Source: a virus
Reading direction: 5' to 3' (one strand)
IMG/VR virus record: IMGVR_UViG_3300037480_000065
Location: 1-28,835 of that record
DNA length: 28,835 nt
Both the position numbers and the translations under genes were made by a program. Shown piece after piece: positions 6,187-10,575 of this stretch (positions are counted from its first letter, which is position 1; each line of letters opens with the position of its first letter). The notes below the pieces were generated by a model that saw only the letters and a list, made by a program, of their open reading frames with translations, did no database searches and was not told the origin of the DNA.

Positions 6187-6290
6187 TTAAGCTGCATCTC
6201 TTCTGTGTGGCATTGGTCTGTTTCTATCATCACCAAGGAACTGCGGTGATTCATCTTGGATAAGGGATAGGCCGGTTTCTGTTATCAGGC
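6187..6290 (-). other. Helicase C-terminal repeat continuing in the +1 frame
   Basis: Just before its stop the helicase encodes DNRNRPIPYPR. In the +1 frame immediately after, the DNA encodes DESPQFLGDDRNRPMPHRRD and two Ala before TAA at 6189-6187. The two stretches align codon by codon (DNRNRPIP against DDRNRPMP) with most differences at third positions, so the second copy has been kept as protein. A single-base indel near 6253-6257, a sequencing error or programmed frameshifting would join them. Confidence 0.55.
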
Positions 6291-7156
6291 GTATACTGCA
6301 TAGATTCATGATTAAACCAGAGCTTAAAAGATCCTTCCCACTCTCCATGTCTTTGTTTTACGATTTTCAAAAAAGCGTCCGGCACATCATCAGCAACAAC
6401 GGCGCCAACGGCAATTTTTTCTTCTTTTGGTTTATTTCGATACTGAATAAAAACATTGTCTACAAGATCAGTAAGCTCCCCGGCTCCCCTGAAATCATGC
6501 TTTGTCGGTATCTTACCCTCTCCATGCTCACCTTTTCTCATATGGTGAACTATGTGAGTGTGGAAGTTTTCGTTTTTTGTCATCCAGCATATTTTATCAA
6601 CGAATCTCGCCTGCTGCTCGTAATCCTCTCGACCGACACCGCATTTCATAAGTGAGTCAATAACTATGTGATCAATGTCTAATATTTTAGCTGCCCAAAA
6701 CATCATAATTAAAATTCTATCCTGCTTTACCGTGTCTTGTTGATCATAGATCCATAATTTATCGTTTGTTGATTTTAAGAACTGTTGTACATATCCATCA
6801 TCAGGTAACCGACATCCAGATACTTGCCTTAACATCCTGGCCAGTGTCGCCTCGGGTTTCATTTCCATAGAGGCTATAAGCCATTTCTTGTGAAGATTCC
6901 ATGCACATACCTGGCCCAGCACTTGGCTTTTACCGTGTCCGTTATACCCACCCCAAATTGATACCTCACCGGGCCTCAGTTGCACCTTGTTGTGAGTTTT
7001 GCTCCAGGGTAAGCATTCGCCTGCCATACTTATATCGCCGTTTAGACGCTTAATCACGCCGTCTGTCCAATTGGAGGCACTACCGATATGTTGAAATTCT
7101 TTACCATTTGAGCTTTCCAGGAAATTAGCAAAATCGTTATCAGAGAAGACTTTCAT
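6251..7156 (-). CDS. DnaB-type replicative helicase (RecA-fold ATPase)
   Basis: A 301-residue protein corresponding to the RecA-like ATPase domain of hexameric DnaB/T7-type helicases, which unwind DNA at the fork using ATP. Walker A is GYNGHGKS at residues 70-77, Walker B is the hydrophobic strand ending in D167 (HIVIDSL), a polar loop HIVHHMRKGE lies at 201-210 and an RGAG motif with a following DLVDNVFIQYRN strand lies at 223-241. The first 55 residues do not resemble the DnaB N-terminal collar, so a short phage form is likely. ATG at 7156 overlaps the initiator stop as ATGA, tying it to the replication initiator. The C-terminus may be prematurely ended (see 6187-6290). Confidence 0.85.
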   Translation of the reverse strand: MKVFSDNDFANFLESSNGKEFQHIGSASNWTDGVIKRLNGDISMAGECLPWSKTHNKVQLRPGEVSIWGGYNGHGKSQVLGQVCAWNLHKKWLIASMEMKPEATLARMLRQVSGCRLPDDGYVQQFLKSTNDKLWIYDQQDTVKQDRILIMMFWAAKILDIDHIVIDSLMKCGVGREDYEQQARFVDKICWMTKNENFHTHIVHHMRKGEHGEGKIPTKHDFRGAGELTDLVDNVFIQYRNKPKEEKIAVGAVVADDVPDAFLKIVKQRHGEWEGSFKLWFNHESMQYTPDNRNRPIPYPR

Positions 7157-7824
7157 ATAGCCCCCTGAGTTTGTGAGGATATATCTAGCGAGTCAGATTT
7201 ATCTTTTTTCTCCCAAGTCCTAACACAAGCCTTCCAGTCCTTTATTTTTGCTTTCCCTCTCATCCATCCATTGCCTTGATACCAATCTATAAATGCCTCT
7301 GGATCGACATTGTTGCTACGCTCCTTGCAATAAGAAGAAACGTCTTCAAGAGAAGGTGGGATAAATTTTTTAGTAGGGGATTTACTCCCCTTATTATTAT
7401 CTTCTATTCTCTTCTTATCTAATCTTATCTGGCCGGAGTTATTCGGAGTTTCTCGGAGCTCTTCGGAGTTCTTCGGAGAAAAACTGTTAATTATTTGTTT
7501 CATTTGAGGATTTTTTGAGTTGGTATCGTCAAGTCTATATGCCATTTTTAGACAGGTAATTCTCCCATTACCGTTCTCGAACAATCCATACTTGACCATA
7601 TCTGACATCATATCCTGGACTTTTATCTGATCTAATCCCCACTCGTTTGCTATTGTTTCGGCATCATATTCAAGTTCAAAAGTTATATTCTTGCTAGATA
7701 TATCTCCAGCAATAAGCTCCAGACAGTACCAATATAATCCATATCCGATAATTCCATGTTTGTGCTTAAGTTTCCTTAACTTGGCGTCTATATGTGCCGT
7801 ACTGTCATGCTTAAACCATTTCAT
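7153..7824 (-). CDS. Replication initiator (DUF4373/DnaD-like N-terminus)
   Basis: A 223-residue protein. Residues 1-90 (MKWFKHDSTAHIDAKLRKLK, then GIIGYGLYWYCLEL and a winged-helix-like AETIANEWGLD) match the Lin1244/Lin1753-type domain found in phage replication initiators. Residues about 100-155 are a polar, disordered linker. The C-terminal part (DPEAFIDWYQGNGWMRGKAK, DWKACVRTWEKK) matches the end of DnaD/DnaT-like loader proteins. It should bind the origin and load the adjacent helicase. The start at 7824 was chosen because it overlaps the upstream stop as ATGA and has GGAGGG 7 nt before it. The linker-encoding DNA carries 10-bp iterons. Confidence 0.8.
   Translation of the reverse strand: MKWFKHDSTAHIDAKLRKLKHKHGIIGYGLYWYCLELIAGDISSKNITFELEYDAETIANEWGLDQIKVQDMMSDMVKYGLFENGNGRITCLKMAYRLDDTNSKNPQMKQIINSFSPKNSEELRETPNNSGQIRLDKKRIEDNNKGSKSPTKKFIPPSLEDVSSYCKERSNNVDPEAFIDWYQGNGWMRGKAKIKDWKACVRTWEKKDKSDSLDISSQTQGAI
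7381..7430. other. G-free AT-rich stretch, candidate DNA unwinding element
   Basis: Fifty nucleotides of the plus strand with no G, mostly T, A and C (TTATTATTATCTTCTATTCT in part), so the other strand is C-free. It directly adjoins the CGGAG iterons. Lambda ori has the same architecture: iterons in the initiator gene beside an AT-rich segment with strong strand asymmetry. Confidence 0.55.
7432..7481. repeat. Five 10-bp direct repeats (candidate origin iterons)
   Basis: Five adjacent 10-mers: GCCGGAGTTA, TTCGGAGTTT, CTCGGAGCTC, TTCGGAGTTC, TTCGGAGAAA. The CGGAG core is invariant and recurs at 7434, 7444, 7454, 7464 and 7474, exactly one helical turn apart. Because 10 is not a multiple of 3 the repeats fall in all three codon phases of the initiator gene, so they are not a protein repeat. 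A role as initiator-binding iterons is inferred. Confidence 0.65.
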
Positions 7825-7997
7825 GGGTGAGCCCTCCATCCACAACCGCATTGTTGAGTGATTATTAAAGACAAATAACAATACGGGCAGGAAATAATTT
7901 CGGGTAATCTACAGCCAAGGTCATTTAATTCTTTAACTTTTTGAATTACTTGCTCTAACCTTTCAGATTCTTTTATAGCCTCTAATTGATTATTCAT
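7821..7997 (-). CDS. Small zinc-binding protein before initiator
   Basis: A 58-residue protein: a charged N-terminal helix (EAIKESERLEQVIQKVKELN) and a C-terminal CPYC...CGCG knuckle that should bind zinc. I chose the ATG at 7997 because it overlaps the methylase stop as ATGA and has GAGGA 6 nt upstream; an ATG two codons earlier lacks a suitable site. Its stop overlaps the initiator start. It may assist replication, but only position suggests this. Confidence 0.65.
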   Translation of the reverse strand: MNNQLEAIKESERLEQVIQKVKELNDLGCRLPEIISCPYCYLSLIITQQCGCGWRAHP

Positions 7998-8563
7998 TGG
8001 CATTCCTCATAATTTACCTCATCGCCCCAAACATCCCATCCTTTTCGATTGCGTCTCGCAAACAGCTCTATCCTGGGTCCGTCACTTTGCGCTTCGATAA
8101 TGTCTTGAAATATCTCTGGCTTTTCGCTGTGTTGCATTGGGCGCTTAACTTCCCACCAAGTTGTATCAATCCGATTTTTTCCTGTAGGCATTTTCCCTCG
8201 CCTACCCAAGATTAGAAATTCTGTTGTGGGGCAATATAAACCGCCTTGCCCTGTTCCTTTTGGCTTTTTGCACCATGTTAATGTTTGGCAGTATTTGAAG
8301 CCCCACCCGGTCATTATGTCGAAAGCGTATGGTAAATATCTTTGAGTTACCCATAAGTACAAGTCGCAATTAGCTGCAGCAAGCCTGTCAATCTGCATTG
8401 CTGCAATTTCTTCAACCGTCATTGTCTCGTATGGCATTACGCTGTCTTGCGGGGCATAACTTGAGCCAGGCGGCGCAATGCTCGCTTTCCCCCACTTTCC
8501 ATATTTCCATGGCGGGTCAACAACAATAGTCGAATATTTACCAGCCCATTGATTAGGATTCAT
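7994..8563 (-). CDS. MT-A70 family adenine-N6 DNA methyltransferase
   Basis: A 189-residue protein of the MT-A70/Ime4-like family, which methylates adenine N6 using S-adenosylmethionine. The catalytic DPPW is at residues 16-19 (YSTIVVDPPWKYG), followed by the family landmarks ADLYLWVT-like CDLYLWVT, LTWCKKPKG, EFLILGRRGK, HSEKPE and the C-terminal RIELFARRNRKGWDVWGDE. It is full length for the phage type. An in-frame GTG just before the ATG is an alternative start; GGAGG serves either. Such solitary phage methylases usually protect against host restriction or mark replication/packaging sites. No cognate restriction enzyme is nearby. Confidence 0.92.
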   Translation of the reverse strand: MNPNQWAGKYSTIVVDPPWKYGKWGKASIAPPGSSYAPQDSVMPYETMTVEEIAAMQIDRLAAANCDLYLWVTQRYLPYAFDIMTGWGFKYCQTLTWCKKPKGTGQGGLYCPTTEFLILGRRGKMPTGKNRIDTTWWEVKRPMQHSEKPEIFQDIIEAQSDGPRIELFARRNRKGWDVWGDEVNYEECQ

Positions 8564-8566
8564 CAC

Positions 8567-8925: not shown

Positions 8926-9090
8926 CTAGTATTTATCTTCTTTCTGTTCAAGCAAAAGATTCAATTTATATTCTATCCTGTCCAATTTTAAGGATAATGC
9001 CTCAATGTGATAAGGCGTACTATTTAAATTATCAAACTGCTGCGCTGCCCTTTTTTGCGCCAAAAACATATCAATATCTTCATCTTTCAT
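8926..9090 (-). CDS. Small early protein, 54 residues
   Basis: A 54-residue protein, MKDEDIDMFLAQKRAAQQF at the start and LDRIEYKLNLLLEQKEDKY at the end, helical throughout and probably coiled-coil. The ATG at 9090 has a GGA-containing site (TTAGGATGGGTT) upstream that belongs to a 30-bp repeat shared with the next gene. About 150 bp without another coding call follow it downstream, holding the inverted repeat at 8791-8866. Confidence 0.6.
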   Translation of the reverse strand: MKDEDIDMFLAQKRAAQQFDNLNSTPYHIEALSLKLDRIEYKLNLLLEQKEDKY

Positions 9091-9313
9091 AACCCATCCT
9101 AACCCTTAGTTTCTTCTGTTTTTAAATCAAAGCACAATCAAGAAAATCTTTAATTTCTCCAACTTCTTTTTCACTAATCAATGTCCCTACTAAACAATCA
9201 AGTATTTCCTGTTCATTGCAATCTAAAGCTGTTGTCAATCTTTCCAATGCTTCTTCAATTAAAAGTAATTCTTTGCCATCCATAACCCCTCCTAATCCTT
9301 GGTTTCTTCTGTT
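9091..9313. repeat. 30-bp direct repeat between small early genes
   Basis: 9091-9120 and 9284-9313 agree at 27 of 30 positions (plus strand: AACCCATCCTAACCCTTAGT against AACCCCTCCTAATCCTTGGT, then TTTCTTCTGTT in both). Each copy lies directly upstream of an ATG on the minus strand and carries its ribosome binding site and the tail of the preceding gene. This suggests a tandem duplication. Confidence 0.7.
9122..9283 (-). CDS. Small acidic early protein, 53 residues
   Basis: A 53-residue acidic helical protein (MDGKELLLIEEALERLTTAL at the start). The ribosome binding site is GGAGG, 4-5 nt before ATG at 9283. In the frame one base back, its 3' end would read DLKTEETKG and stop, matching the KTEETKD terminus of the next gene, so this gene may have suffered a small frameshift at its end. 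Function unknown. Confidence 0.6.
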   Translation of the reverse strand: MDGKELLLIEEALERLTTALDCNEQEILDCLVGTLISEKEVGEIKDFLDCALI

Positions 9314-9456
9314 TTTTCTTTACAAATAATATTAACTATATTTTGTATTTCAGTTTCATATTCACCTTCGTATGAATCAGCGCCATAAGCACCTTTACAG
9401 TCATAGTAAATACTTTTAATTAATTCTCTTATTGCTTTTGTTAATTCATCTTTCAT
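9292..9456 (-). CDS. Small early protein, 54 residues
   Basis: A 54-residue protein beginning MKDELTKAIRELIKSIYYDC and ending ICKEKTEETKD. Strong ribosome binding site AGGAGGG before the ATG at 9456. Its 3' end forms part of the 30-bp repeat that recurs before the gene at 9090. Its opening residues resemble those of its neighbours (MKDE, MKDI), which suggests the cluster arose partly by duplication. Confidence 0.6.
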   Translation of the reverse strand: MKDELTKAIRELIKSIYYDCKGAYGADSYEGEYETEIQNIVNIICKEKTEETKD

Positions 9457-9475
9457 AATCCCTCCTAGTCTTGTG

Positions 9476-9749: not shown

Positions 9750-10055
9750 TCAATATATTACCTTCTCGAATTCTTCTGGTAGCTCGTAGTTGTCCCAAGG
9801 CATGTCTGAGGAATCATAATCACAAGACCATCTATTTGAGCCGTTACGCCAACATACAATACGACCATCTTCATCCCATTCCTTAAAATACCTATTCCTT
9901 CTTTCACTACCATATCCCCAAACCACAACAGGATCACCGTCTTTCAGGTTCGGGCGCTCTTTTAATTCCTCTTTAATTCTGTCTACAATTCTACCGTATG
10001 ATGCCATGGCTGCTTCAGCATGCTCAAGCTCACCTTTTAACCACTTTCTATCCAT
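9750..10055 (-). CDS. Early protein with helical N-terminus and SH3-like C-terminus
   Basis: A 101-residue protein. The start at 10055 (MDRKWLKGELEHAEAAM) has GGGAG 8 nt upstream; the longer open frame back to 10127 runs into the HNH gene and lacks a site. Residues 1-40 form a helix. The rest is beta-rich and aromatic (GDPVVVWGYGSERRNRYFKE, GRIVCWRNGSNRW, PWDNYELPEE), as in small SH3-like phage proteins. It overlaps the HNH endonuclease stop by 8 nt. Confidence 0.65.
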   Translation of the reverse strand: MDRKWLKGELEHAEAAMASYGRIVDRIKEELKERPNLKDGDPVVVWGYGSERRNRYFKEWDEDGRIVCWRNGSNRWSCDYDSSDMPWDNYELPEEFEKVIY

Positions 10056-10575
10056 TTTTTCTACTCCCATGATTAGCATGATAACCATATCTTTTATTTG
10101 CTTTCTTGCGAGCTTTAATCGCTTCACCTTTATTTTTGAAATAACCTATAACGATATTAATACCATTCGTATTAATTCTTGCTCGCCATCTGCCGCTTGC
10201 TTTGTGCCAGTCAACACCACAGAATCCACTGTCATTATTTTTGTTAAGCGTCCTATTCTGATGATTTTCCTGGTGGGTCGCTTCCTGTAAATTAGCAAGT
10301 CTATTGTCATCTCTTATTTGATTAATATGATCAACTTGATTTATTGGCATCCCGCCATACATGTATAAAAATACTAACCTATGGGCAAGATATAATCTTT
10401 TATCAAGTCTAATACTGATATACCCATATGTATCAGGGCATCCAGCCTTTTTAAGTGCTAACCGGCTATTAAATGACTTATGCCTATTATGGGTTTCGTC
10501 GCGTTGATTATGCGTAAATTCACCAGTAATAGGACTATAAGTTAAAAGTTCTTTAAGTCGTTTTTGTGTCAGCAC
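10048..10575 (-). CDS. HNH homing endonuclease with AP2 DNA-binding domain
   Basis: A 175-residue homing-type endonuclease. Residues about 60-110 are an HNH_3 nuclease domain (YLAHRLVFLYMYGGMP, then NQVDHINQIRDDNRLANLQ and HQENHQNR, with the characteristic DHI, N and H). Residues about 115-160 are an AP2-type DNA-binding domain (GFCGVDWHKASGRWRARI, GYFKNKGEAIKARKKA). These enzymes cut DNA at specific sites and spread their own gene. The start is GTG at 10575 with GAGG 9 nt upstream. No intron boundary is evident, so it is probably free-standing. Confidence 0.92.
   Translation of the reverse strand: MLTQKRLKELLTYSPITGEFTHNQRDETHNRHKSFNSRLALKKAGCPDTYGYISIRLDKRLYLAHRLVFLYMYGGMPINQVDHINQIRDDNRLANLQEATHQENHQNRTLNKNNDSGFCGVDWHKASGRWRARINTNGINIVIGYFKNKGEAIKARKKANKRYGYHANHGSRKNG

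Follow-up and report, generated by a model that had tools for sequence, protein, structure and literature searches.

Short helically phased repeats followed by a 5-nt repeat element mark a putative replication origin inside the gene of a Lin1244_N-type phage initiator

The DNA stretch analysed here (the window; 28,835 bases), a linear 28.8-kb virus record with P22-like features, carries inside the gene for a replication initiator an array of short repeats spaced by one helical turn, followed by an A+T-rich run that is itself built of 5-nt repeats (Table 1). The array and the adjacent run very probably constitute the replication origin of the phage, embedded in the linker-coding part of its own initiator gene. 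Among the relatives of this gene, the spacing is kept across changes in the repeat letters and in the encoded protein, which makes the region a very probable start site of copying. The relatives possess two elements under selection at the DNA level, in fixed order, the phased array and then the 5-nt repeat, and the type of the phased repeat matches the subtype of the initiator.

Table 1. Features of the putative origin and its surroundings (positions in the window)
Feature	Position	Strand	Basis
Phased array of five CTCCG repeats with an exact period of 10 bp (plus strand CGGAG)	7434-7478	-	Sequence; 10/11-bp counterparts in relatives
G-free (plus strand) A+T-rich run, 51 nt, 75% A+T, holding the 5-nt repeats	7380-7430		Sequence
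Six tandem 5-nt repeats, GATAA GATTA GATAA GAAGA GAATA GAAGA; proposed unwinding element	7400-7429	-	Sequence and family statistics
Replication initiator gene, 223 aa, ATG at 7824; encloses the whole feature	7153-7824	-	Translation; PF14297; PHROG 2562, 391
N-terminal winged-helix-like domain; proposed repeat reader	7570-7818	-	Pfam match, residues 22-104; AF2 helices and two-strand wing
C-terminal domain (approximate bounds); proposed helicase/loader contact	7200-7370	-	PHROG 15768/28809; AF2 pLDDT ~81-94 by block
DnaB-like helicase gene, 301 aa, adjoining the initiator gene	6251-7156	-	PF03796, E=1e-8; PHROG 5482/239/19

The sequence-only reading of this DNA had described five CGGAG copies at an exact 10-bp period, and a recount confirmed their positions (7434, 7444, 7454, 7464 and 7474), with no other copy between 7000 and 8000. 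Because the host gene lies on the minus strand, the repeat on the coding strand is CTCCG; the successive units are CTCCGAAGAA / CTCCGAAGAG / CTCCGAGAAA / CTCCGAATAA / CTCCG, and the full coding-strand reading is TTTTTCTCCGAAGAACTCCGAAGAGCTCCGAGAAACTCCGAATAACTCCGGCCAGATAAGATTAGATAAGAAGAGAATAGAAGATAATAATAAG, that is, a 10-bp unit with a 5-bp invariant core. Even three phased copies were encountered in 0 of 100 dinucleotide shuffles of the window and are thus not a chance expectation anywhere within it. When the protein was held fixed and the codons were replaced by synonymous ones (n=200,000), at least four phased CTCCG arose in 0.0185% of the recodings and five in none. Likewise, the linker of the window matches itself at lag 10 beyond the level of synonymous recoding (p=0.001), and lags 7-9 and 11-15 are not significant. 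It had been argued from the original reading that a period out of phase with the codons cannot be explained by selection on the protein; the conclusion holds by virtue of the synonymous-codon test, but the phase argument alone is no proof. Similarly, the sites are indeed helically phased but, contrary to what was supposed, not unusual for their family, in which short phased sites are common; the period met most often there is 11 bp, the exact 10 bp of the window being a variant.

At its N-terminus, the initiator matches Lin1244_N (PF14297, formerly DUF4373; E=9e-11, 42.8 bits versus a curated cut-off of 25), and the protein also matches two PHROG replication initiation families, 2562 and 391. 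The match to PHROG 391, 'replication initiation O-like', spans residues 64-189 (E=3e-5), and there is no Pfam Phage_rep_O match in the same protein. Together with the matches of the adjoining gene, these Pfam and PHROG assignments bear out the proposed pairing of a DUF4373-type initiator with a DnaB-type helicase. The N-terminal domain was modelled by AF2 with pLDDT of 59-92 by block; a Foldseek search against the PDB gave no match at E<=0.001, with weak winged-helix resemblances only, and the full-length model is of low quality over the linker. The linker is predicted to be disordered (AlphaFold pLDDT <50 at residues 117-148) and the repeats fall inside this segment, in agreement with their earlier placement in a disordered linker. 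Relatives carry unrelated domains in place of the C-terminal domain of the window. For instance, the same N-terminal domain is joined to unrelated C-terminal domains in L047 (Phg_2220_C), L041, L066 and others, the repeat linker being the joint between the swapped domains, as in lambdoid initiator mosaics.

Several other features of the record were noted in passing. A gene for an MT-A70 type DNA methyltransferase (7994-8566) is located just upstream of the initiator gene. The starts of three short genes on the minus strand (9077-9467) have in common a repeated leader similar to TTCATCTTTCATAACCCATCCTA, with copies at 9079, 9272 and 9445, which suggests duplicated small genes or ribosome-binding leaders. 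A 60-bp tandem repeat (1056-1302; 4.1 copies, 69% match) lies in a large minus-strand ORF (1-2037) without a Pfam match. Rfam and tRNA scans found nothing.

Searching viral contigs and, in one scan, bacterial genomes yielded 107 non-redundant relatives of the initiator gene, 104 of which were retained after a score cut; near-identical phage DNA and plasmid relatives were also sought and none were found. Each gene was compared with recodings in which every codon was swapped at random for a synonymous codon of the same gene. Across the 104 genes, self-match in codons 0-30 after the domain was in excess at lag 11 (Z 17.0) and lag 10 (Z 6.6), that in codons 22-52, an interval chosen by position alone and independently of GANNA content, at lag 5 (Z 19.6), lag 10 (Z 18.5) and also other multiples of lag 5, and that in the stretch between the domain and the 5-nt repeat alone at lag 11 (Z 20.6) and lag 22 (Z 10.3), all of these being combined values that overstate certainty because the rows are treated as independent. 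In the same test (n=104), Z was near zero for the flanking domain and C-terminal regions. When the rows were strictly clustered, the 41 that remained gave Z 10.0 at lag 11 and Z 11.4 at lag 5, and the signal is also found within the larger subgroups. Taken individually, 62 of the 104 genes are significant at lag 10 or 11 (p<0.01) and about a quarter are not at p<0.05. A second, distant branch of 12 genes has excess at lag 11 (Z 6.9), lag 10 (Z 4.5) and lag 5 (Z 4.2), with repeat sequences that differ again (GTTCAACGGAN, CTTCGAACGAC, AATGCGAACGC). On average, the relatives share 59% protein identity over the domain and 27% over the linker. The question raised with the initial reading, namely, whether relatives keep phased repeats while the linker protein drifts, is thus answered in its favour: the spacing is kept at 10/11 bp, and not only the linker protein but also the repeat letters change.

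Tandem repeats devoid of any role at the DNA level could, in principle, have arisen by slippage or reflect low complexity of a disordered linker rich in Lys, Glu, Asp and Arg, as might be surmised from the predicted disorder, from simple peptides such as RLDKI and from the period-10 array that Tandem Repeats Finder reports here. We regard this explanation as highly improbable, given that the excess of periodicity persists with the protein fixed, that none of the periods (10, 11 and 5) is divisible by 3 and that the sequence turns over while the phase stays. Moreover, slippage would not yield the mixed 10- and 11-bp steps present in the array of L007, or the alternating orientation of TCCCGA/TCGGGA in L015.

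The letters of the repeats at this same place differ between subgroups, namely, CTCCG, TCATG, TCCCG/TCGGG and TCCGG. CTCCGA repeats are found in L001, L014, L066 and the window, and TCCGG/TACGG repeats in L028, L036 and L037, whereas GTCATG recurs approximately every 11 bp in, for example, L041 (GGGTCATGATG GGGTCATGATG GGGTCATGCCA TAGTCATGATG GAGTCATGCAA); the repeat of L008 is GTCTCCCGAGA. In L086, which belongs to the subgroup of the window, a 21-bp (7-residue) repeat is present, in which TCCGA alternates with TCGGAG every 10/11 bp (mean 10.5 bp per site). Recognizable TCATG-type repeats extend to homologous genes of cultured phages, including Pseudoalteromonas phage Pq0, Vibrio phage 1.236.O, Vibrio phage Athena1, Escherichia phage mEp515 (host K-12) and Pantoea phage PdC23. 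As in the window, the initiator gene of Pq0 and Vibrio phage 1.236.O has a DnaB-like helicase gene as its neighbour; in a Porphyromonas phage, the neighbour encodes a DnaC-like loader and in PdC23 a lambda P-like protein. Such neighbours suggest that the initiator fits the part of a functional stand-in for lambda O.

It is with the segment immediately following the wing (post-winged-helix), and not with the rest of the domain, that the repeat type co-varies. The segments RLDxSMTSN or TSATSN are accompanied by TCATG in 45 of 48 cases, and the segments DEYT, DDYT and DTNS by CCG-type repeats in 45 of 47 and by TCATG in none; within the latter set, RxDEYT goes with TCCCG/TCGGG, and DDYT and DTNS go with CTCCG or TCCGG. 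A tree of the preceding domain shows 11 changes of repeat type and 10 of the segment; an independent-pairs test was underpowered, with only 4 well-supported pairs (sign test, median p 0.5). Because the segment adjoins the array, the two could travel together, so that physical linkage could contribute to their correspondence.

Binding alone would explain both the phasing and the co-variation with the protein, and the array might therefore serve the initiator or another phage protein as a site for autoregulation or segregation, that is, as an operator or a parC-like centromere, instead of an origin. In plasmid centromeres, ParR binds 10/11-bp repeats that are likewise short and phased at one helical turn. 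This possibility nonetheless appears improbable: the constant 5-nt C-free element downstream and the location in an initiator gene that has a helicase or loader gene as its neighbour would be left unexplained, an operator deep within a coding region would be unusual, and no ParA/ParM/ParR family or partition ATPase was detected among the ORFs scanned, which included part of the small ones.

The G-free A+T-rich run reported beside the array in the sequence-only reading is present, although its extent had to be amended from 50 nt (7381-7430) to 51 nt; it ranks second in length among the G-free or C-free runs of the window. The longest G-free run (9864-9930, 67 nt) is in a minus-strand ORF (9750-10127), where no phased repeats were noted. 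The run beside the array is itself ordered: read on the minus strand from 7429 down to 7400, it consists of tandem GANNA repeats, the complement of which reads TNNTC. In the relatives, the GANNA element directly follows the phased array, as in GATAA GATTA GATTA GATAA GAATA, GAACA GAACA or GAAGA GAAGA. At least five tandem GANNA on the coding strand are found in 77 of the 104 linkers, compared to 3.8 expected by synonymous recoding, and a scan of both strands of the flanking DNA (494 kb) gave 0 such matches. The peptides RLDKI, NRTEQ and EEKRR recur in the linkers because the GANNA repeat encodes them. Runs of at least four GANNA are present in only 5 of 56 initiator-like genes recruited by C-terminal similarity, and the feature is therefore not universal among phage initiators. 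In some initiators (L316, L437), the 5-nt element is replaced by a different short period, as exemplified by the linker peptide VDVDVDVD in L316 and by GAATTA runs in the Escherichia coli phage mEp515; the unwinding element may therefore tolerate other periods. By analogy with known origins, we propose that the 5-nt element is a strand-asymmetric unwinding element.

Alternatively, the true origin could be located elsewhere, e.g. in an intergenic iteron cluster, with the element described here acting as an accessory or secondary site. Since the record is a linear fragment that may be incomplete, further candidate sites are possible, and GC skew does not single out the initiator gene, turning at ~12.2 kb in the window and at 22.7 kb in Pq0, versus 19.0-19.7 kb for the Pq0 initiator. 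Both turns, however, coincide with a divergent promoter region, and since the skew is dominated by gene direction, it is uninformative on the origin and gives no support. We assign very little probability to an origin elsewhere, considering that there is no second array of its kind in the 28,835-base record, that the lag-10/11 self-match level of the array was reached in 0 of 510 background windows and that the same place is marked across the family as a whole.

In phage lambda, the origin lies within gene O and comprises iterons and an AT-rich tract (PMC7466680). As in lambda and its Stx-phage relatives, the repeats described here are within the initiator gene, between N-terminal DNA-binding and C-terminal partner domains, several putative initiator sites stand beside an asymmetric AT-rich tract, and a helicase-recruiting gene adjoins (PMC7466680). 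Unlike in lambda, the AT-rich tract is a 5-nt tandem repeat and the Pfam domain matched by the initiator is Lin1244_N, not Phage_rep_O. Lambda iterons are ~18-19 bp long, imperfectly palindromic and 4-6 in number, whereas the sites here have a short core of 5-8 bp, occur once per helical turn and do not form ~18-19-bp palindromes. The Rep proteins of plasmids bind iterons jointly with one strand of an unwinding element that itself contains repeats (PMC4081077), and RK2 oriV with TrfA provides a parallel in its winged-helix initiator and in direct repeats next to an unwinding element with short repeats (PMC4081077). The unwinding repeats are 13-mers in these plasmids and 5-mers here. Plasmid iterons, furthermore, are ~17-22 bp long and located outside the gene. 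The DnaD Recognition Element of the Bacillus subtilis oriC consists of pairs of TnnT on one strand (PMC10201434). This element and the DnaA-trios resemble the present arrangement in having short-period strand-asymmetric repeats next to double-strand sites, and TNNTC recalls TnnT, although the period of the DnaA-trios is 3 versus 5 here. We treat this likeness as an analogy only, a lead; the DnaA box (TTATNCACA, <=1 mismatch) does not occur in the array and has 37 matches in the window versus 35.4 expected, and no DnaD family domain was found by Pfam in the proteins tested, including the initiator. In Francisella phage KIRK, a putative lambda-like origin has been annotated by its authors in association with the replication gene ORF43, which codes for a 5-residue repeat, KDNNK x3 (PMC7924643); compared by description, that case concerns a single phage, and no family-wide or DNA-level selection test was noted for it (PMC7924643). 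A search of the open literature found no study of Lin1244 or DUF4373 origins, and a prior description in subscription journals is possible.

We infer initiator binding, DNA opening, strand choice, helicase loading and the replication function itself, the mechanism by analogy with lambda and iteron plasmids. The initiators would bind the short sites through the N-terminal winged-helix region, one per helical turn, and, once bound, would align along the same face of the helix, forming a compact complex beside the C-free/G-free element. The complex would then open the element made of 5-nt repeats and probably retain one of its strands in a manner that depends on sequence, and the C-terminal domain would bring the DnaB-like helicase, the product of the neighbouring gene, onto one strand.

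More generally, it is about an even call whether Lin1244_N-type initiators use a two-part DNA code, in which co-evolving phased sites would be combined with a widespread GANNA/TNNTC single-strand unwinding and loading code read by the initiator or the helicase machinery, and RLDKI, NRTEQ and EEKRR would be by-products. The finding supplies a sequence-based rule for finding the origin across the many phages and prophages that have a Lin1244_N initiator, among them cultured phages of laboratory hosts, and offers an account of the odd repeated peptides in initiator linkers. It also makes testable both the assembly rule of one initiator per helical turn and a 5-nt single-strand code for opening or helicase loading, comparable to the 3-nt DnaA-trios and the TnnT elements at bacterial oriC.
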